The notes beneath the pieces were generated by a model. The model searched no databases and had not been told where the DNA came from. It saw only the letters and a program-made list of their open reading frames with translations. Source: a virus. From it: 64,000 bases of DNA. Position 1 is the stretch's first letter; the number at the start of each line of letters is the position of its first letter. A program made the position numbers and the translations under genes. The stretch lies in the IMG/VR virus record IMGVR_UViG_3300035698_018475, positions 1-64,000 of that record; one strand, given 5' to 3'. Shown here one piece after another: positions 1,529 through 64,000 of the stretch.

Positions 1529-4054
1529 ATGGCACTTCAGAGATCTTTCTTTATTGATGAAGAAGAACTCCTTGCTGAAGAGAAGAAGAGGAGGAGTAAA
1601 AGATCTGGTAAGTCCAGGAGATCCACAGGTTCCACAAGAAAAGTGTTTAATTGTGAGACCTGTGGGTTATACGAGAAATGTCGGTCTCCTAAGATAGAGA
1701 GGTATGGAGAAGGAAGGAAGGGGATACTATTCATAGGGATCAATCCGGGGGCAGAAGAGGATAGATCTGGCATTCCCTTTATTGGAGAGTCCGGGGAGTT
1801 ACTTGAAGATATTGTAGACTGTATGGGACTCAGTCTGGATGAGGATTGTGTGAGGACCAATATAGTACAATGTAGAACCCCAAAGAATAGGCTTCCTACT
1901 GGGGAAGAAATTAAGAGTTGTCAATCAAGACTTATCAAAGATATACAAGAGGTTAAGCCTAAGTTGATTATAACTCTTGGTAAAGAGCCTACAAATACCC
2001 TTTTTCGTATGGTGGGTATGAGTGGTTATGGTATTGGAACCGTTCATGGGTTGGTCTTTCCTTTACAGAAGTTTAATTGTTGGATGGGTTGTACTTATCA
2101 TCCGGCATATATAGTGAGGGAAGGGGAGAAGTCTTATGATAGGGGAGTAGGTAAGAGAGATATACTTGCTTTTGATATTGATGACGCTCTTAGTTATTTG
2201 GATAAACCTATACCATCTATATTGTCAAGAGAGGGTTGTATACTTATACAGGACTCAGTGGATTGTATAGCGATCCTAAAAGAGTTTCAGAGGAATAAAA
2301 ATCCAGTAGCTTTTGATTATGAGACTACTTGTCTATCTGCTTTTAATCCAAAGGGTAGGATATTATTAGTTTCTTTGAGTGATGATCCAGAGGAAGGTTT
2401 TTGTATACCTTTGGGGATGAATGACTGGAATGATGTGGAAGAAGCTTATGTGTATCAAGAGTTTAAGAACTTCCTTGCAAGTGATGTTCCTAAAGTAGTT
2501 CAAAGTTTGAATATGGAAGAACTATGGAGTAGGATACATCTTAAACAACCTATAAATAAGTTTGTATTTGATACCATGATAGGGCATCATGTAATGTATT
2601 GCAGGAAGGGAACTGCCGATCTGGACTTCCAAGTCAGGATGCTTACCGGGGATGATTATAAGGATATGGTGGATAAGAAGAAGTTGGAGAAAGAGCCAGT
2701 ACAGAAGGCAGCTATTTATAATAATTTGGACTCCCGGCATACTGTATTATCTTACCAAACCAATAGGGGGAAGATGGATGATGGTTTGGCCTTTTTTAAT
2801 GAACTGCTTACCAGGGGTAGTGTCGTTATGGCAAATCTTACTGAGAGAGGAGTAAGGATAGATACTGAACTATTAGATACTCTGAAGGAAAATACATCAG
2901 AAGAGGTGGAAATAACTTTAGAGGAAGTAACTTCCTGTAAAGCTGCAAAGAGGTATCGTAAGGAGTGGGGAGATACCATAAATGTTAATTCCGGAGATCA
3001 GCTCATTTCTTTATTGCACGACCTATATGACTGTAAAGTAACAAAACGAACTGGGACTGGAATGCCCTCTACTGATGTTAATACTTTGTCCAAATTAAAG
3101 GAGGGTTGTAAAGATCCCGAGTTGGTAGAGTTCTTGGATTGTCTATCTTCACATAAGAAGGTTTTTAGTTTTCTGGGGAAGATAAAAACATTTGAGAAGC
3201 ATATATGTCAGGATGGGAAAATACATTCCCTGTTCCATCTGGATGTAGCAGAGACTTTCAGGAGTTCAAGTTCTGATCCCAACCTTCAGAATGTTCCCAT
3301 TCATGATGAATTACTGCAATTGATAAGGCAATGTATAGTACCTTCCAAAGGGAATGTGATTATAGAGGTGGATTATGATGGATTGGAAGTTCGTGGTATA
3401 GGAATGAATTCTAATGATAGAACTTTAATTGAGGAAATCAAAGGTGGGGATTCCTCAGATACCCATCGGTCGTGGGGTGCCAAGATATATCAAGTTAAGT
3501 TCAAAGAAGTAACTGAGGAGCAAAGGTACAGATCTAAAAACAGGTTTGTGTTTCCCGCTTTTTATGGGGCTGTTGCACCTTCTATAGCTCGTTCTTTGGA
3601 AATGGAAGAAGACTATGTAAAGGGTTTGTGGGACGAGTTTTGGGATAGATACAGTGACGTTAAAGAGTGGAAAGAGTCTGTAAAAGAGTTTTACCAAGAG
3701 CATGGGTATATCCGTGGGTTGTCAGGTTATAGACGGTATGGACCACTGAATGATGAGCAGTTAGGTAATACTCCAGTACAGGGAATTGCTTTCCATCTTC
3801 TGTTGGATGCCTTAATAAGAGTGGATGATTCTCTCACAGGGAAGTTGGTTAGGAGTGGTTTTAAGACACTACCTATTATTCAAATTCATGATAGTATTGT
3901 GTTTGATACTCCTCCGGATGAGGTGGAAGATGTGGTACCATTTGTTTCTGATATAATGACGTCCAAAAGATTTGATTGGCAATTGGATGTACCACTATCC
4001 GTGAGTTGGAAGATTGGAGAGAACTGGTTGGATATGAAGGATTTGGAGAATTGA
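1529..4054 (+). CDS. uracil-DNA glycosylase / family-A DNA polymerase fusion
   Basis: An 841-residue replicative polymerase with three parts. Residues 1-40 are basic and Ser/Arg-rich. Residues about 41-225 resemble family-4 uracil-DNA glycosylase: four cysteines in the iron-sulphur pattern (C42, C45, C115, C131), GINPGAEED (70-78), PKNRLPT (118-124) and HPAY (191-194). Residues about 255-420 are a DEDD 3'-5' exonuclease (DYE at 263-265, YNNLDSRHT). The C-terminus is a family-A polymerase: motif A DYDGLEVR (615-622), a divergent motif B around 666-680 ending in FYG, and motif C QIHDS (785-789), with Ser where HDE is usual. N-terminal UDG-like domains are known on some phage polymerases of the SPO1 type. 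Whether the glycosylase is active or only reads uracil cannot be told. Confidence 0.9.
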   Translation: MALQRSFFIDEEELLAEEKKRRSKRSGKSRRSTGSTRKVFNCETCGLYEKCRSPKIERYGEGRKGILFIGINPGAEEDRSGIPFIGESGELLEDIVDCMGLSLDEDCVRTNIVQCRTPKNRLPTGEEIKSCQSRLIKDIQEVKPKLIITLGKEPTNTLFRMVGMSGYGIGTVHGLVFPLQKFNCWMGCTYHPAYIVREGEKSYDRGVGKRDILAFDIDDALSYLDKPIPSILSREGCILIQDSVDCIAILKEFQRNKNPVAFDYETTCLSAFNPKGRILLVSLSDDPEEGFCIPLGMNDWNDVEEAYVYQEFKNFLASDVPKVVQSLNMEELWSRIHLKQPINKFVFDTMIGHHVMYCRKGTADLDFQVRMLTGDDYKDMVDKKKLEKEPVQKAAIYNNLDSRHTVLSYQTNRGKMDDGLAFFNELLTRGSVVMANLTERGVRIDTELLDTLKENTSEEVEITLEEVTSCKAAKRYRKEWGDTINVNSGDQLISLLHDLYDCKVTKRTGTGMPSTDVNTLSKLKEGCKDPELVEFLDCLSSHKKVFSFLGKIKTFEKHICQDGKIHSLFHLDVAETFRSSSSDPNLQNVPIHDELLQLIRQCIVPSKGNVIIEVDYDGLEVRGIGMNSNDRTLIEEIKGGDSSDTHRSWGAKIYQVKFKEVTEEQRYRSKNRFVFPAFYGAVAPSIARSLEMEEDYVKGLWDEFWDRYSDVKEWKESVKEFYQEHGYIRGLSGYRRYGPLNDEQLGNTPVQGIAFHLLLDALIRVDDSLTGKLVRSGFKTLPIIQIHDSIVFDTPPDEVEDVVPFVSDIMTSKRFDWQLDVPLSVSWKIGENWLDMKDLEN

Positions 4055-6710: not shown

Positions 6711-7639
6711 GACCAACTGATTTGAAAGATATTATAGGTAATAAATCTATAATAGACTCCATCAGTAAAGTGTTGGGGAGGGAATCTCGGAAACGACCAC
6801 ATACCTTTATGTTGGCTGGACCATCTGGATGTGGGAAGACCACAATAGCCCGGATAATGGCAAAAGAGTTCGGTTGTGATGCATTAGGTATTGAAGAGTT
6901 GAATGCTGCAAATACTCGTGGTATTGATACAGTTCGTCAAATAGTACAAGGTGCTCATATACTGCCTTTAACGGGATTGGCAAAGTGTTATATCTTAGAT
7001 GAATCTCATCAATTGACAAATGCAGCACAGCAGGCGTTGTTGAAAATAATAGAGGATTGTCCTTCCCATTGTTATTTCTTTTTCTGTACTACAGATCCAC
7101 AGAATATAATTAAGACTATTCATAATAGATGTACCAGATATGATGTGCAATTATTGGGCAGATCTGATATTGTAAATCTTTTACAAAGAACTCTTGATGA
7201 GAAAGCTGTTGGGAAGGATAAAGAAGTTCTAGAGGCCATAGCAGATGTTTCAAATGGTTCTCCAAGAACCGCTTTAGTTCATTTGGAGAAAGTTTTTGGG
7301 GTGGAAGATACAGATACTATTATAGATCTTCTCCTAGGTGGCACAGAAAAGGATAGTAGTATTTGGGATATAGTTAGTATCATTTGTTCGGCCCCCAAGG
7401 TTAGGAGAAAGAAGTGGAAGATAGCTTTAGCTCTTGTTAATAAGTTAGATAATGATTCAGAAGATATTAGGAGAACTCTTGTATCTTGTTTGTTGAAGAA
7501 GATGTCCGAGAGTGATGATGAAAAGGATTTGCAGGATTATATTAAGCTCCTACAGTTGTTTGATAAGAATACTTACTATGGGGGAAAAGCTTTACTAGGT
7601 AGTTTGATTGTTCAGGCTTGTTTTATTGATGAGTTGTAA
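6692..7639 (+). CDS. clamp loader AAA+ ATPase (DnaX/RFC-like)
   Basis: A 315-residue AAA+ protein that would open the sliding clamp and load it on primed DNA. Walker A is GPSGCGKT (43-50), Walker B ends in DESH (103-106), and the sensor and arginine-finger region reads HNRCTRY (144-150). The domain order and short length match phage and archaeal small RFC subunits or a truncated DnaX. It serves the beta-type clamp at 293. ATG 6692 lies inside the previous gene. Confidence 0.85.
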   Translation: MLYQEVRPTDLKDIIGNKSIIDSISKVLGRESRKRPHTFMLAGPSGCGKTTIARIMAKEFGCDALGIEELNAANTRGIDTVRQIVQGAHILPLTGLAKCYILDESHQLTNAAQQALLKIIEDCPSHCYFFFCTTDPQNIIKTIHNRCTRYDVQLLGRSDIVNLLQRTLDEKAVGKDKEVLEAIADVSNGSPRTALVHLEKVFGVEDTDTIIDLLLGGTEKDSSIWDIVSIICSAPKVRRKKWKIALALVNKLDNDSEDIRRTLVSCLLKKMSESDDEKDLQDYIKLLQLFDKNTYYGGKALLGSLIVQACFIDEL

Positions 7640-26949: not shown

Positions 26950-27039
26950 GTTGCTTTTCCGTGTAATTATTATGTAGTGGGTATGCACTGTATATAGTCC
27001 CTATGTATGTGGTGTGTAGTAGAGAGAGATGAGGATTTT

Positions 27040-29643
27040 ATGGCAAATAGGTTGTTAAATTTACTGAAAAAGATATACCCCACTCCTGCAACTCTCCCAG
27101 TCTCAGCGGTTGAAGATGTGGTTGACGCCGCGAAAGGTGGGGATAAGGATTTCAAGGAGTCATATAAAGCGATACTGGCCAGATTAGGGTCTTACACCAG
27201 TCAGATATCAGATGAGATATTTAAGTCCACAATGGTCAATTTTGAGAGGGTCATGTTATACCGTGAGATTGACCGGGCATTGATGCATTGGTTGGTAGGT
27301 TCAGCCGCTGAGTTGTTTGCTGATTACAGTACTACTTATGATAAGTTGAGAAATTCAACGGTGTGGGTGAGTTCAGAGAGTAAGAAGTATCAAAATGAGT
27401 TGAACAACATGTTGCACCAGATTGATATAGAGGAGAAGATCTACGACTGGGCGTATACTACAGGGGTTTATGGTGATTTGTTTATCCAACCTGAGGCTAT
27501 CCCCGGGATAGGTATAGTGGGTGTCAATGATGATGACCACCCGATGAATGTGTCCCGCCTGGATTACAATGTTTTAATAGGATTCTACCGTACTCCCACA
27601 GTTGTAGGTGGTACAGCCTCAACCCAAGCGGAGTTACTACCCCCGTGGGAGTATGTTCATTTCAGGTTATTGGGTGCAAAGAAGAGACGGTCTGTTCATG
27701 GGGATCCCCTGTTTAGTCAATACTCCTCAGTCCACTTCTTATCACAGGATCCCAGGCAGATGTCCAGCAAGTATGGGACGAGTCTATTGGTGAATGCACT
27801 CCCGGCTTTTAAGAGGTTACGCTTGGCTGAGGATTCCCTGTTGATGGCTAGGGCGACTCGTGGGGTTGAGAAATACATATATAAAGTTCGTGTCGATTCT
27901 TGTTTGGTGGGAAACACCAGGATCAAGCTATTAGACGGTAATTGCCCCACTATTAGAGAGATGGCACAGGATGAGGAGGCCTATATAGGTAAGAGTGTTT
28001 TGACCGTGAATGAGCTTACCCAGGAGTTGGAACCCAATAAGATCCTAGCAGTTTGTTTAACCAGGGTAGACGCTGAGTTAGTCAGAGTGCATTTGGATAA
28101 TGACAAGTATGTGGATTGTACTCCTGACCACCTATTTATGTTACGATCAGGACTTTACAAACAAGCAAAGGACTTACAGCCTAATGATAGTCTAATGCCT
28201 TACTATGAGAAGAGGTCTGAATATGATCTAAAGGGTTATAAGAAAGTGTACGATCCAGGGCTGGGTAGGTGGTATTACGTTCATCGATTAGTATCTGAAA
28301 GAGTTGGTCGGGGATTGGTCAATCATCACAAAGACTTTAATACGGACAATAATGATCCCACTAACTTGGGGGTAATGACTCAATCTGATCATATGAAGTT
28401 ACATCAAGCTACTGGGGGAGTTGGTTTTAGTGCTTGGGTGAAGGGAAGTAAACAAAGTGAAGAGCAGGTGAAGAAGAGAATAAACTCCAGGAGAAGTACA
28501 GGTAAGCCTTGGCATAGTGAGGAGACTATAAAGAAGATTAGTCAGGCAAGGAAAGGTAAAGGTACTCATTGTACTCCTCATACTGAACAAGGAAAGAAGA
28601 ATATAAGTAAGGGGAAGAAGGATGCAAACAAAGCGAAGCAGTTAAATCATAAGGTGGTTAAAGTAGAGTTTTTGTGGGAGAGGCAAAACACTTATGATAT
28701 TCAGATAGAGAATACTCCTAACTTTCCTTTGGATGTAGGTATATTTGTTCATAACTCCAATGTGGAGGCTGTGGATGCTATAATCGATCAATACGCTTCA
28801 CTGTTGAAGAAGGCGAGGGCAATAGATACCAGACCTAACAATCCCTACTTTGACCAACAGATGCAACTCCTTTCGGTCATGGAAGATATAATCATCCCCG
28901 TATGGGGGGATGTCAATGATTTAGCCATAGAGAAGATAGGGGGAGATGCAAATATCCGGTGGATAGTCGATATAGTTGAGGCCAGGAATCAGCTGGCATC
29001 ATCCCTGAGAGTGCCACTTGCATTGTTAGGGGGATTCACCCAGGAAGCCACTGGCTCTCTGGGTTCCACTTCAATAGAGCAACTGGATATCAGGTTTGGC
29101 AGGACCGCCAAGAGGGTGCAAAGGGCTTTGATCCAGGGTATAACCAGGTTATGCCAAATACATTTGGCCTATGTGGGGATGGACCCGGATCCGACTTTGT
29201 TTGAAGTTAATATGCCAGAGACCTCCACGGCTGAAGAAGAGTCGATAAAAGAGACGTTGTCTACTTCTGTGGATGCAATAGCTAGATTCATGGAGATGTT
29301 GAACAGTGTGGAGGGAGTGCAGTTCAACCAAGGGAAATTAGTTGATTTCCTCAGTCAGAAGATTATCCGTCTGGGGGATTTCCAGATAGAGGATTATATT
29401 GAAAAGGGTGAGGGGATGCTAACAGAATCCAAACGGGCCATGATAGATCTTGGTCTGGACTACATAGCCAATTCAAAGGGGTTGCCCAAGGAGTTTGGTC
29501 CAAGGTGGGGTAATAACGGGGATGTCCGGGCCTGGACTTATGCAAATAATGATCTATGGGAGTCCAAGTTTGGTCCGAAGAGTAAATGTGGAGGAAAGGT
29601 GGAGGTTAAGACCACCTATCCTGTTGAGGGTACTAAGAAGTGA
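27040..29643 (+). CDS. portal protein interrupted by an intein
   Basis: The precursor is 867 residues from ATG 27040 (GAGG upstream; ATG 27007 is less likely). Removing the intein leaves 582, normal for a myovirus portal. N-extein landmarks include YDWAYTTGVYGDLFIQPEAIPGIG and a PPWEYVHFRL segment; the C-extein has a LRVPLALLGG segment and a long helical end. The dodecameric portal would dock the terminase. The intein sits after residue 287 between Asp-Ser and Ser-Asn. Confidence 0.85.
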   Translation: MANRLLNLLKKIYPTPATLPVSAVEDVVDAAKGGDKDFKESYKAILARLGSYTSQISDEIFKSTMVNFERVMLYREIDRALMHWLVGSAAELFADYSTTYDKLRNSTVWVSSESKKYQNELNNMLHQIDIEEKIYDWAYTTGVYGDLFIQPEAIPGIGIVGVNDDDHPMNVSRLDYNVLIGFYRTPTVVGGTASTQAELLPPWEYVHFRLLGAKKRRSVHGDPLFSQYSSVHFLSQDPRQMSSKYGTSLLVNALPAFKRLRLAEDSLLMARATRGVEKYIYKVRVDSCLVGNTRIKLLDGNCPTIREMAQDEEAYIGKSVLTVNELTQELEPNKILAVCLTRVDAELVRVHLDNDKYVDCTPDHLFMLRSGLYKQAKDLQPNDSLMPYYEKRSEYDLKGYKKVYDPGLGRWYYVHRLVSERVGRGLVNHHKDFNTDNNDPTNLGVMTQSDHMKLHQATGGVGFSAWVKGSKQSEEQVKKRINSRRSTGKPWHSEETIKKISQARKGKGTHCTPHTEQGKKNISKGKKDANKAKQLNHKVVKVEFLWERQNTYDIQIENTPNFPLDVGIFVHNSNVEAVDAIIDQYASLLKKARAIDTRPNNPYFDQQMQLLSVMEDIIIPVWGDVNDLAIEKIGGDANIRWIVDIVEARNQLASSLRVPLALLGGFTQEATGSLGSTSIEQLDIRFGRTAKRVQRALIQGITRLCQIHLAYVGMDPDPTLFEVNMPETSTAEEESIKETLSTSVDAIARFMEMLNSVEGVQFNQGKLVDFLSQKIIRLGDFQIEDYIEKGEGMLTESKRAMIDLGLDYIANSKGLPKEFGPRWGNNGDVRAWTYANNDLWESKFGPKSKCGGKVEVKTTYPVEGTKK
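27901..28755 (+). mobile_element. intein with HNH/NUMOD3-type homing endonuclease
   Basis: A 285-residue intein within the portal frame. The splice domain starts with Cys1 (CLVGNTRIKLLDG), has block B TPDHLFML (74-81), a block F around 252-282, and ends FVHN (282-285) followed by Ser as the +1 residue. Residues about 136-168 carry an HNH-like segment (NHHKDFN, DHMKLH), and 205-220 (HSEETIKKISQARKGK) match NUMOD3. All splice residues look intact, so splicing and homing are both plausible. Confidence 0.85.
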
Positions 29644-42793: not shown

Positions 42794-45700
42794 ATGAAAG
42801 TTATACCTTTTCCGAAGGATGACAGGGAAGTTGTGTTCGAGAAGTACCAGATGGTACAAATGCAAGAAGGGGAAGAGCTCCCAAGTAAGGTGTTGTGCAG
42901 AGTGGTATATCCTGTGTGCAACCTTGATCAACTTAATGCAAATAAGAGGAGGTATAGGAAGGCAGTGTGGGAACAGGTGATGGATTCCGATACTCTTAAG
43001 GAAAAGTTGGACCACCGATGTCTGTTTGGGCACGCAGAACATCCTAAGGAGTCCCAGAGTCAGTTGGAGAAAACCTCTCATGTCATAAATAGGATCTGGG
43101 TAGATGAGGATTCTAATAGGGTGTTGCAGGAAATTGATGTTCTGGACACTCCTTATGGAAGAATAGTGGATACTCTACTGCAAGCTGAATGTGGAGTTGG
43201 AGTGTCCACCAGGGCTGAGGGGGAATTGGAGGAACAGAAAGATGATGAGGGTGAAACCTTTTATGATGTGATCCCGGAATCTTATGGATATATTACTACT
43301 GATTTCACCGCCGATCCCTCAACTCCTAATCCTTATCCCATGGAAGTGCAAAGGAGAATGGTGGAATCGATCGAAAAAGACAGGAACGATCTTGATCAGG
43401 GGTTCGCCATAGCCATGTTGGAGAGTATAAAGGGTAAGAAGGCACAATCTTTATGTGAGTCCATCAAGAGTAGTAAGGTGGAAGAAGAAGAGAAACCTTT
43501 GCAGAAAGTTAAACTAGTTGAACGAAGAGGTAAATCCGATCCCACCTATGCCAAGAAAATCATGGACTTCATAGATGGGGAGTGGAAAGAGACCCGGGAG
43601 AAGGATCTCACCAAGTTGATGCAAGAGTACAGGGAGCATATTAAGGTGGCACCCAAAGAGTCAGTGAAGAACTGGCTCGGTAGATTATGGCAGACTAACG
43701 AGAAAGGTTTGGTCCCCTTTGTGTCTGAAGAGTTCGTGAGGGACTATAAATCGTTATTGGAGCAGGAGGATCCGGGAGAGTTCGATCTTGATGGGGAAAT
43801 GGCGGCAGAGGGGAATGCTGGGGCAAAACCAGGTGAGGAGGAGTTGGAGGGAGATCTGGGTGATGAGGAAGTTATAGGTGAGCCTGAGGGAGATGGGGAT
43901 ATCCCGGGAGAGCCTGGTCCGGATCTGGAAGTTCCTGGGGAAGAGATGATAGTGGGTGAAGAGTTACCTGCAGAAGGAGAACTACCACCTGGGTTTGGTG
44001 CAGAAGTATCAGTGGGAGTTATGGATATTCCCGATGTATCGGCCACAGCCCTGATGTTACCTCCCCCGATATTGGATCCTCGAACAGCGGGAGTGAGCCA
44101 GATAGCCGATAGATTTGGATTCTTGGAGTTTATGACAGATTCAGGTAATAGTGTGGTCAGTCCATATCTGCAGAGGTTGGAAAAGGAGAGGTTGGATCTA
44201 TTGGATGAGTTGTCCTACAGATATTCCAGATCTGTCAGGGAAAGTAAGAAAGGGCAAAAGATTGAGTTCCGTGTTGATGAGTCTAAACTGTTGGAAATCC
44301 AGGATGTTAGATCCTCCAAGAGGGTTATTGAGTTCCTGGAAAGGGATTGGACAGAACCCGTGGAGAAGAAGATCTCCAAAACTATCCTGGAAAATAAGGA
44401 TACTATTCTTAAAGCTCCTATGGGGGAGACCAAGGATTATCTTTCCAGGGTGTGGGAAGCACAGTCTGAAGAGTTGATAGTTGATGCTTCTGATGACTTT
44501 GTTGATGAGTTACTGGAATTGATTAACTCTGATCCAGTGGATGAAACAGAAGATATCAAACAAGTATATACCGATGCTGGATTGGATCCCCCGAAAGGTA
44601 AGGGTATTCATACCAAGAAGTTCCATCGGATGGCGACTGATATAATGAAGGGGTATAGTGATGGGGAGCCCACTGAAGAAGAGAAGGGTATAGCATACGC
44701 AACTACCATGGATAGACTGGGAAGAGATAAGTCGGTGAGGAAGAGTCACCATCAGGATAAGTCTGAGAAGATTAACATCCAGGAAAACTACTGGGGGTTA
44801 TTGGACTTCCTAACTAAGTGGGAGGAGAACAAGGGTAAAGTGCCAAAGAAGAAGAAAGTGGAGTCAAGTGCAACTAAACCCGTCAGTTGTCAGTCTGAGG
44901 GAGACATAGTCAGTGGTAGGTTGTTTGAGAAGAAGAAAGTGAATGAGCAAGAGGGAGATTTATCTATAGAAGAAATTAAAGGTTACATGAGAAAGACCAT
45001 AGCTCAGATGTCTGATCCACAGTATGAGGATGTGATAGCTTTTACAGAAGAGTGGTCTAAGATAAAGCTCCCTGATACTGATGAAGTAATGGATGCTGCA
45101 AATGAGGTTATACGAGAGTTTGATCGTCTGGTGGAGATGTGGTCAAGTGGAGAATCTGGATGGGTAGGGGATGATGATATGGAGGAATCAAAGAAAAATA
45201 AATCTTCTATTGATCTTCAAATACAAGAGGCTTCCACCCGGGCTGAGAGAGATAAAGCTTTGGAGGTTCTGGAAGATATCCAGAACCAGCTTAAGCAATT
45301 ACAGGATTCAAAAGAGGTGGAAGTCGGATTACTGTTAGCTAAGTTACAGGAGAGTTCCTCTGATATAGTCCAAAGTTATCAAGCGTTGAAGAATAAGTTG
45401 AAGGAAACCTTCGGGGAACTAAAGGTGGCAAAGGCCAGTCTTGATGCAGATCAAGAGGAACTGGCCAAGAAGGATGCTACTATAGCTACTTTGAAGGGGG
45501 ATGTTACTCAGATGAAAGCTGAGTATGGTACAGAGATAGAACAATTGGAGAACCGTCATCTTACTGAAAGAACTAAGATGTTAAAAGGTTATACACAAGC
45601 CAGATTAGGCGAAAGTTCTTATAAAGCAATTCCAGACAGAACTCGAGCACTTCTTGAGGAATCAAAAGATCTGGAAGAGGTTGAAGACCGGCTAATTGCG

Positions 45701-45865
45701 GTCCGGCAGACCCTTAGAGAGAATGCACTTCATTCTACCGGGGATATTGGGATTGATAAGATCTCTGTCACTACCATAGATAGTACCGATCCTAAGCAAG
45801 CTGCAGTCAGTAAAGGCGTTAATCTGGCCTGTGAGGGTATGTTAGGAACTAAGAAGAAAAGTTAA
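42794..45865 (+). CDS. prohead protease (gp21-like) fused to scaffolding protein
   Basis: A 1023-residue protein. Residues about 1-190 follow the gp21-type protease: NLDQLNANKRRYRKAV, the histidine pair in GHAEHP, SHVINRIWVD, LDTPYGRIVDTLL and GVGVSTRAEG with the serine. The rest is scaffold-like: an acidic Gly/Pro region (about 325-410), two related blocks of about 80 residues (near 252-330 and 512-590), and a long coiled coil (about 810-935). KKVNEQ (E718) and INIQEN (E664) may be self-cleavage sites. In T4 the protease and core are separate genes (21 and 22). AGGAG precedes the start. Confidence 0.75.
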   Translation: MKVIPFPKDDREVVFEKYQMVQMQEGEELPSKVLCRVVYPVCNLDQLNANKRRYRKAVWEQVMDSDTLKEKLDHRCLFGHAEHPKESQSQLEKTSHVINRIWVDEDSNRVLQEIDVLDTPYGRIVDTLLQAECGVGVSTRAEGELEEQKDDEGETFYDVIPESYGYITTDFTADPSTPNPYPMEVQRRMVESIEKDRNDLDQGFAIAMLESIKGKKAQSLCESIKSSKVEEEEKPLQKVKLVERRGKSDPTYAKKIMDFIDGEWKETREKDLTKLMQEYREHIKVAPKESVKNWLGRLWQTNEKGLVPFVSEEFVRDYKSLLEQEDPGEFDLDGEMAAEGNAGAKPGEEELEGDLGDEEVIGEPEGDGDIPGEPGPDLEVPGEEMIVGEELPAEGELPPGFGAEVSVGVMDIPDVSATALMLPPPILDPRTAGVSQIADRFGFLEFMTDSGNSVVSPYLQRLEKERLDLLDELSYRYSRSVRESKKGQKIEFRVDESKLLEIQDVRSSKRVIEFLERDWTEPVEKKISKTILENKDTILKAPMGETKDYLSRVWEAQSEELIVDASDDFVDELLELINSDPVDETEDIKQVYTDAGLDPPKGKGIHTKKFHRMATDIMKGYSDGEPTEEEKGIAYATTMDRLGRDKSVRKSHHQDKSEKINIQENYWGLLDFLTKWEENKGKVPKKKKVESSATKPVSCQSEGDIVSGRLFEKKKVNEQEGDLSIEEIKGYMRKTIAQMSDPQYEDVIAFTEEWSKIKLPDTDEVMDAANEVIREFDRLVEMWSSGESGWVGDDDMEESKKNKSSIDLQIQEASTRAERDKALEVLEDIQNQLKQLQDSKEVEVGLLLAKLQESSSDIVQSYQALKNKLKETFGELKVAKASLDADQEELAKKDATIATLKGDVTQMKAEYGTEIEQLENRHLTERTKMLKGYTQARLGESSYKAIPDRTRALLEESKDLEEVEDRLIAVRQTLRENALHSTGDIGIDKISVTTIDSTDPKQAAVSKGVNLACEGMLGTKKKS

Positions 45866-60330: not shown

Positions 60331-61134
60331 ATTCCTAAAGGTGTTTATAAAAGAACTGAATTTCATAAAGAACGTATGAGATCAGGAAAAGTCCTTATAA
60401 CAAGGGTTTGTCCTATATGTGGGGATACTTTTGAATGTGGGGATTGGGCATATAAGTATACTTATTGTAGTATTCGATGTTCTGGTATTTCACAAAGAGG
60501 TAAAGTGATTTCACAAGAACAGCGAGATAAAATAAGTACGACTCTACGAACTGTTAAAAGAGAAAGAAGGAAGTGCCTGGAGTGTGGAGAAATATTTGAG
60601 ATTAAGGTGAATGTTACTAAGAAATTTTGTAATAGAACTTGTTACTTTTCTTATAAAAAACGTGGTATGTATAAACATTCAGAGGAGACAAAGAAGAAGA
60701 TAGGAGATAGACATAGAAGAGAGAAGTTGAAGAAAGTCTGTCTTTCTTGTGGGAAGGAATTTTATGTATGTAAGTGTTTCAAATCCACTAAGTATTGTTC
60801 TATGAAGTGTTTTGGTTTGGATCATAGAGGGGATGGAGCAGCTGCTTGGAATGGTGGCACATCAAACTTTCCATATCCATTTGATTTTGATAAAGAACTG
60901 AAGGAGTTAATTCGTAAGAGAGATAGTTATGAATGTAGATTTTGTGGTATGTCACAAGAAGAACACTCGGAAGTTCTGGGAGAGCAGTTAAGTATACATC
61001 ATATTGATTATGATAAGGAAAATTCTGATCCAAACAATCTTATTTCCTTATGTAGAGGATGTCATCTCAGGACTAATGTTAATAGAGAAAGTTGGAAGAA
61101 GATTTTTAGATTAAAGTTAAAAATGGCGATTTAG
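60331..61134 (+). CDS. free-standing HNH homing endonuclease, possible ATT start
   Basis: A zinc-rich nuclease inserted between sheath and tube genes. It has CPICGDTF, CLECGEIF and CLSCGKEF ribbons with matching C-terminal Cys pairs, a NUMOD3-like HSEETKKKIGDR block, and a C-terminal HNH (YECRFCG, IHHIDYDKENSDPNNL, CRGCH). The first ATG is 60376 (252 residues), but the frame upstream codes for PKGVYKRTEFHKERM, typical of the start of such proteins. ATT 60331 lies eight bases after AAGGAG (60317-60322); there is no ATG, GTG or TTG in frame before 60376. Confidence 0.75.
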   Translation: MPKGVYKRTEFHKERMRSGKVLITRVCPICGDTFECGDWAYKYTYCSIRCSGISQRGKVISQEQRDKISTTLRTVKRERRKCLECGEIFEIKVNVTKKFCNRTCYFSYKKRGMYKHSEETKKKIGDRHRREKLKKVCLSCGKEFYVCKCFKSTKYCSMKCFGLDHRGDGAAAWNGGTSNFPYPFDFDKELKELIRKRDSYECRFCGMSQEEHSEVLGEQLSIHHIDYDKENSDPNNLISLCRGCHLRTNVNRESWKKIFRLKLKMAI

Positions 61135-62249: not shown

Positions 62250-62282
62250 GGAGATACATTTACAGAAGGGTTGGTAGATACA

Positions 62283-63032
62283 ATGGGAAAGGATTTTAGA
62301 AGCGTTAAATTACCGTCTAAATGTTTGGTATATCCCGGGGTAAGTCCAGAGGATATATCTATCTGTCAATTAACTGGGGAGGAAGAAAGGTTATTATCGG
62401 AGGTCAATACTTCTAATTTGGATAGGAAGGTTCTTGAGGTCCTAAAGAATGTAGTACGAGGTGTAGACGTTTCTGTACTAACCGCAGGGGATCGATTGTT
62501 TCTCCTGATATGGGAGATTATGAATTCCTTTTCTGATGAGATTCCTGTAAGTTATCTATGTTACAATTGTAACAAGAAAGTGGATATTACTGGGAAGTTC
62601 TCTACTATGGAGGTTATAGAACTTCCAGATGATTTCAAACAACCATATCCAGTGACTCTGTCAGATGAAAAAGTAGTAAATCTCCGTTTACTCACAGCGG
62701 GTGATGAAGTTCTGATCTCTGATTATGAAAGTAGTGGTAAAGATGCTTGGTGTTATAGGTATGCATTAAGTATAGTTTCTGATGATGATATTTTGAGAAG
62801 GATTAAGTTCTATCAGGATCTTCCAGTAAAAGATACTGCTAAAATCAGAGCTTTCCAAGAGAAGTTTTTCCATGGACCCAGTATGGAATTTCCCTGTAAA
62901 TGTCCATACTGTGGGGAGGAGGAACTTGTTTCCATACCCTTTCGTATTGAGTTCCTTTTTCCGTCTGGCGAGGGGCTTGTCAGAAATCATGGAATTGGAG
63001 TTTCATCTGATGTGGTACCTAAGGATGAGTAA
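62283..63032 (+). CDS. baseplate hub/assembly protein (gp26-like family)
   Basis: From ATG 62283, 249 residues (TTG 62271 is an alternative). Starts with LPSKCLVYPGVSPEDISICQLTGEEE, the pattern of T4 gp26-type baseplate proteins (T4_baseplate family). It has a zinc pair CYNC and a later CKCPYCGE. A tail-assembly role fits its place after the tube genes. Confidence 0.6.
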   Translation: MGKDFRSVKLPSKCLVYPGVSPEDISICQLTGEEERLLSEVNTSNLDRKVLEVLKNVVRGVDVSVLTAGDRLFLLIWEIMNSFSDEIPVSYLCYNCNKKVDITGKFSTMEVIELPDDFKQPYPVTLSDEKVVNLRLLTAGDEVLISDYESSGKDAWCYRYALSIVSDDDILRRIKFYQDLPVKDTAKIRAFQEKFFHGPSMEFPCKCPYCGEEELVSIPFRIEFLFPSGEGLVRNHGIGVSSDVVPKDE

Positions 63033-63120
63033 ATCTGATCTTCTGCAGTGTTCTCTGAAAGAAAGAGATTGGTTATATAACAGATTGATACAGGTGATTA
63101 GTAGGAAGAAAGATGGCTAA
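63025..63120 (+). CDS. very small protein before the tape-measure gene
   Basis: Thirty-one residues from ATG 63025, overlapping the genes before and after by eight bases each. Charged helix (CSLKERDWLYNRLIQVISRKK). Small genes often sit in this place in contractile-tail clusters, sometimes as part of a spliced-frame chaperone; here no frameshift signal is obvious. Confidence 0.4.
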   Translation: MSKSDLLQCSLKERDWLYNRLIQVISRKKDG

Positions 63121-64000
63121 GAGACCTACTTGGATTAGATCTTATATGAAGCTTGGGAGGTAGGCTTTTGATGATTACACCCTTTCTGTACTTCGCCTAA
63201 TAGAGAAGAAGTACTCTGAGGACTATGTAGTATTTCTTAAACAACTTAGATCTCATTTTTCTCCCGGCACTTCTATAGGAGAAAAGGCACGTATTTTAGA
63301 AAAACAGGTTCATCAGTCTATTAAGACCATCAGGAATCTCCGTGGTTGGTATGGTGGGAAAGCCACGAGAAAAGAAATATCTGAATTGTATGTGACCTTG
63401 GAAGCAATAGAATTGGGGATAAAAGATATTGCTGAGATGTCGGGAGCTTCCCAGGAGTTGAAAAGTGTACTGGTTTCTATACAGGAGCAGGTTAATGTTT
63501 CAGTAGAAGAAATCCAGAAAGCAGGAAAAGCGATTAAGAAAGGAGTATCTTCTGCAAGAGTAAAAGGAAAAGGTAGAAAAAGGCAGAGAAGGGATTCTTC
63601 TTTCCAAAGGGATATTTTAAGAGGCTTTCTTGGGGAAATGGTGGTGGGGAGAGGAGATGGACGTAGGACTAAAGGTAAGGCAGAGGGTCGTGGAAGAACC
63701 AGGTTAATGCGGGCTCTGACTCCAGTTTCTACCCCTGAGATAGGTGGAGAGAGGCCCAGAACCAGGGCAACCACAGTAGGAGGAGTATCTGCAGGAGGTT
63801 TATATGAATTCTTTGACCAAGGTGCTTATAAAGCCACATGGACCAGAGATGTTATTAGTGAGTTGAGGGAGATTAGAACCAAATTAACCATTGGTACAAA
63901 AGGTAAGGGAGTGGGTGGTTTACTGGGTAAGTTGGCTTTAGTTCTTGGTGGTGGGGCGGGAGTGGTGGCACTTATGGGTGGTTTGGTCGTTACTCTAGGA
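63113..64000 (+). CDS. probable tape-measure protein, partial, with in-frame TAG
   Basis: ATG 63113 follows AGGAAGAAAG, overlaps the previous gene and opens MAKRPTWIRSYMKLGR, then TAG at 63161-63163. The same frame stays open from 63164 to the window end (279 codons) and reads as a normal protein: a helical first part, a basic Gly/Arg region, and a hydrophobic Gly/Leu/Val stretch near the end (LLGKLALVLGGGAGVVALMGG), as in tape-measure proteins. No ATG, GTG or TTG occurs in frame between the TAG and TTG 63386. TAG ends many other genes here, so it is not generally read as an amino acid. The gene may need read-through, may be mutated, or the base may be an error. Confidence 0.6.

Follow-up and report, generated by a model that had tools for sequence, protein, structure and literature searches.

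The window analyzed here, a 64,000-nucleotide stretch covering positions 1 to 64,000 of a 124,322-bp virus record (IMGVR_UViG_3300035698_018475), ends inside an open reading frame on the plus strand. The frame begins at ATG 63113, is interrupted after 16 codons by an in-frame TAG (codon 17, 63161–63163) and then stays open for 489 codons, running out of the window as far as 64633 in the flanking DNA (L002:2633). A likely ribosome-binding site, AGGAAG (63103–63108), lies 4 bases 5' of the ATG, and the start overlaps by eight bases the preceding ORF, whose stop is at 63118–63120. Directly before the TAG lies GGGAGG (63155–63160), which resembles a Shine–Dalgarno (SD) sequence. The first in-frame ATG, GTG or TTG after the TAG is at 63386, 74 codons in. 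Codon statistics of the frame are coding-like throughout (0.288 bits per codon before the TAG, 0.202 from the TAG to 63386 and 0.316 after 63386) and negative in the other frames. The start with its ribosome-binding site, the overlap, GGGAGG and the TAG had been described in an initial annotation of the sequence, which had called the post-TAG frame open, coding-looking and devoid of a usual start codon before 63386; the sequence, the frame scan and the codon statistics agree with it on every count. Scanning the whole record for a stop followed by a long open frame lacking a start, we found no comparable case on a gene-bearing strand.

The interrupted gene and its genome

A direct terminal repeat of 127 bp marks the record as very probably a closed genome of ~124.2 kb. 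Its source is a divergent T4-like myovirus, and the genome encodes T4-like portal, prohead protease, sheath and tube proteins, a gp26-like chaperone and a gp6-like baseplate protein. The interrupted gene occupies the tape-measure position, with the tail chaperone gene on one side and the hub/baseplate genes on the other. Searches with PHROG and Pfam profiles gave no family match for its own product, and a profile search of the family against the PDB returned only coiled-coil-like chance matches; a few of 17 relatives matched PHROG tape-measure families weakly (best E-values 2.8e-4 and 5.5e-4). Operon place and the weak matches in relatives together support the earlier naming of the gene (63113–64633) as probably the tail tape-measure gene. 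With T4-like tape-measure genes (T4 gp29 position; PHROG_167 and PHROG_794) it has in common the order sheath, tube, chaperone, tape measure, hub/baseplate, as well as a start that overlaps or abuts the chaperone stop; it differs from them in being too divergent for direct family assignment and in being interrupted by the TAG.

In the T4-like portal gene (27007–29643), Pfam shows an intein, kept in frame, that includes an HNH endonuclease domain. The prohead protease gene (42794–45865) is 1023 codons long, whereas that of relative G001 has 533; a large insertion lies between 43501 and 45173. A separate HNH endonuclease gene (60376–61134) sits between the sheath and tube genes and is missing there in L006 and L008, while an ORF at 1529–4054 fuses a uracil-DNA-glycosylase domain to a family A DNA polymerase.

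Immediately upstream of the interrupted gene, the T4 gp26-like tail assembly chaperone is encoded in a short form at 62271–63032 (+; PF12322, E-value 2.2e-13; PHROG_150, E-value 3.6e-17). We compared the window copy with those of the contigs L006–L008 and L103–L142 and found, overlapping its 3' end in the +1 frame, a second ORF conserved in relatives (62940–63120, +). This extension appears to be a gp51-like C-terminal part; the L008 copy matches PHROG_634, the baseplate hub assembly catalyst, with an E-value of 1.2e-4. The chaperone gene contains the heptamer CCC TTT C (62937–62943, +), in frame, identical and equally placed in 18 of the 21 copies, while CCC makes up only 18 of the 184 other proline codons in the compared genes. 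Among the exceptions, L105 has CCC TTT T, L109 has a variant site, and L135 lacks the site and has a second ORF with an ATG of its own. In L140, the fifth codon from the site is the stop of the short ORF. This early stop, just after CCC-TTT-C, led us to place the shift at the heptamer and to drop a candidate CTT farther 3'. The conserved overlapping ORF and the conserved slippery site thus point to a probable programmed +1 frameshift at CCC-TTT-C; a –2 shift in place of +1 would formally be allowed as well.

Tail-chaperone frameshifting has been reported as absent in T4 (PMC5009743), and T4-like phages have been described as using two separate genes (Vladimirov 2022, as cited by PMC10885494). 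A frameshift in the present gene would extend the phenomenon to a T4 gp26/gp51-like gene. In distant marine T4-like contigs, we observed a second chaperone ORF past a conserved T-rich run (TTTTTT, then TAC or TGG CCT), mostly in the +1 frame (L040, L049, L053, L064, L067, L082, L083, L085 and L086) and in four contigs (L011, L013, L014 and L015) in the –1 frame.

Relatives aligned across the TAG

We collected ~40 contigs of the same group by sheath and gp6-like protein searches; 20 of these hold the chaperone and the following gene. In tblastn searches with the relatives' genes, the matches spanned the TAG (G001, 63113–64000, E-value 1.6e-20; G002, 63131–64102, E-value 9.5e-16), and the syntenic genes of the nearest relatives, L006/L104 and L008/L103, and of L105, L107, L113, L118, L123, L132, L142 and others aligned through it without a gap. 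The codons before the TAG and the N-termini of the syntenic relatives have a W-x3-Y/F-x3-G motif in common. When the ten residues before the TAG were scored against 15 relatives, 29 of 100,000 shuffles matched or beat them; the same residues were equalled or beaten by one of 73,213 genomic 10-mers, possibly the segment itself. At the column of the TAG, the relatives have S, G, L, T, F, R, D, A or K, and none of the 20 has a stop.

In L007, L114 and L140 (L109 is ambiguous) the tape-measure gene begins at or after the TAG column, and the short N-terminal segment is therefore not universal. The initial annotation had held that homologues starting after this point would refute its reading; such starts occur in this minority, while the nearest relatives start before the TAG. 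Judged by the gapless alignments and the homologous segment before the TAG, 63113, the start named in the initial annotation, is ancestral, and the TAG interrupts the gene as a nonsense codon at a residue that varies among relatives.

The TAG at 63161 is the only true-frame internal stop among the genes conserved with G001–G003, the other stop-containing matches being judged antisense, running into overlapping frames, or weak fibre-like repeats. We found no copy of the same species, whether in viral contigs, searched by DNA pattern and with the tape-measure protein, or in genome contigs, searched with the sheath protein; a phage collection searched with the tape-measure protein yielded no relative of it.

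Origin of the TAG codon

Global recoding of TAG, already thought unlikely in the initial annotation, was ruled out by the stop counts: TAG terminates 41 of the 159 selected ORFs, the tail-tube gene among them, and occurs internally once in the conserved genes. The present genome resembles TAG-recoded phages with suppressor tRNAs in having an in-frame TAG within a structural gene, but it has one such TAG only, uses TAG as a common terminator, and has no suppressor tRNA that we could find. ARAGORN at its default setting reported no tRNA in the closed genome, and ARAGORN, Rfam and a constrained fold of a tRNA-like element revealed no tRNA with a CUA anticodon there. That element, the sole tRNA-like match in Rfam (124184–124290; L005:2184-2290), extends into the 127-bp terminal repeat and has perfect acceptor and T arms, with an over-long, odd anticodon region. 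It contains no CTA and is therefore no ordinary amber suppressor, and the suggestion that the phage supplies its own suppressor tRNA gained nothing from these searches.

A UAG read through by programming or by an amber-suppressor tRNA of the host, giving full-length tape-measure protein at a reduced level, would account for the coding sequence that continues intact and in frame on both sides of the TAG, in a gene that should be essential and in a genome that is otherwise intact and closed. We nevertheless consider it unlikely. The stop is absent from all 20 relatives, the quarter or so of the selected ORFs that end in TAG shows the codon at work as a stop, and the sequence downstream of it folds no better than shuffled sequences (z –0.76 and –1.25, pseudoknot-free folding), giving no sign of a stimulatory structure. 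The A1 gene of phage Q-beta is a viral gene expressed by stop-codon read-through, and, as there, a single frame is open on both sides of the stop. Unlike in read-through of that type, the present stop comes early in the gene and not toward the end of a complete protein; relatives do not conserve it, and we detected no stimulatory element for it. Slightly less likely again is the specific proposal of a genuine TAG at which host or programmed read-through, fixed at a low level, limits the amount of tape-measure protein at codon 17. Directly 5' of such a TAG, a frameshift probably tunes the chaperone of the same protein already. This would amount to stop-codon control of a tail-length protein, for which our literature searches found no report, nor any precedent of read-through in a tape-measure gene. 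The initial annotation had pointed to such control as potentially new; with a stop that is not conserved, no stimulatory structure and no decoding tRNA, our analyses do not support it, and frameshifting in the chaperone gene is the better supported of the two.

Translation could alternatively begin 3' of the TAG, by re-initiation or from a start codon of an unusual kind, and produce a protein lacking the first residues. The relatives whose gene begins at or after the TAG column suggest that the N-terminal segment is dispensable in some members of the group, and GGGAGG directly 5' of the TAG could be taken as a signal for such a start. We regard this as very unlikely: the segment before the TAG is conserved with the majority of the relatives, and beginning at 63386 would lose conserved sequence. 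The 74 codons free of usual starts and the homologous upstream segment led us to reject an alternative start. As for GGGAGG, highlighted earlier as a strong SD-like signal, it can be accounted for as two codons, for Gly and Arg, of which the Gly is conserved in relatives, and no start in the frame is suitably spaced from it. An ATG at 63171 does not share the tape-measure frame; its ORF stops after nine codons, and the surrounding DNA is conserved as tape-measure coding sequence, as the L008 codons show. A frameshift around the TAG was rejected, both alternative frames stopping within about a dozen codons, and the gapless alignment led us to reject an intron or insertion there as well. An interrupted tape-measure gene would also be left by genuine gene loss in a phage that is decaying or satellite-like, but this is highly improbable, given that every other conserved gene detected is intact, that the genome is closed and that the 489 codons after the TAG carry no further damage.

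We consider it likely that TAG 63161 is a nonsense lesion affecting a single codon of this one sequence, without a regulatory role. The gene would be an ordinary tape-measure gene of a T4-like myovirus, read from its ancestral start at 63113 to 64633, and codon 17 would read TAG either because the metagenome consensus took up a wrong or minority base or because the sampled phage carries a nonsense allele. Of the options listed in the initial annotation, mutation or read error thus fits best, while programmed read-through found no positive evidence. From the uninterrupted relatives, the position of the stop inside homologous sequence and the absence of decoding machinery in the searches above, we infer a lesion rather than a read-through site. 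About 4.8% of the substitutions in codons of the 124-kb genome create stops. Two considerations count against a lesion. The tape-measure protein is established as essential in tailed phages and should be so here, and a fixed early nonsense allele should therefore not persist; and the quality of the assembly looks generally good, since the genome is closed and no further conserved gene was seen to be broken.

Similar breaks were seen in metagenome contigs of the relatives. L111 has an internal TAA in a baseplate gene at 6934, and L140 has several indels (2405–2425, 6356, 7075 and 8158), one of them in its own tape-measure gene. These nonsense and indel lesions have the form of the present one, a single-site break in an otherwise conserved gene, and we found no feature that sets it apart from them. 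As a lesion, the TAG would be of minor importance, a reminder that metagenomic phage contigs hold single-codon breaks.
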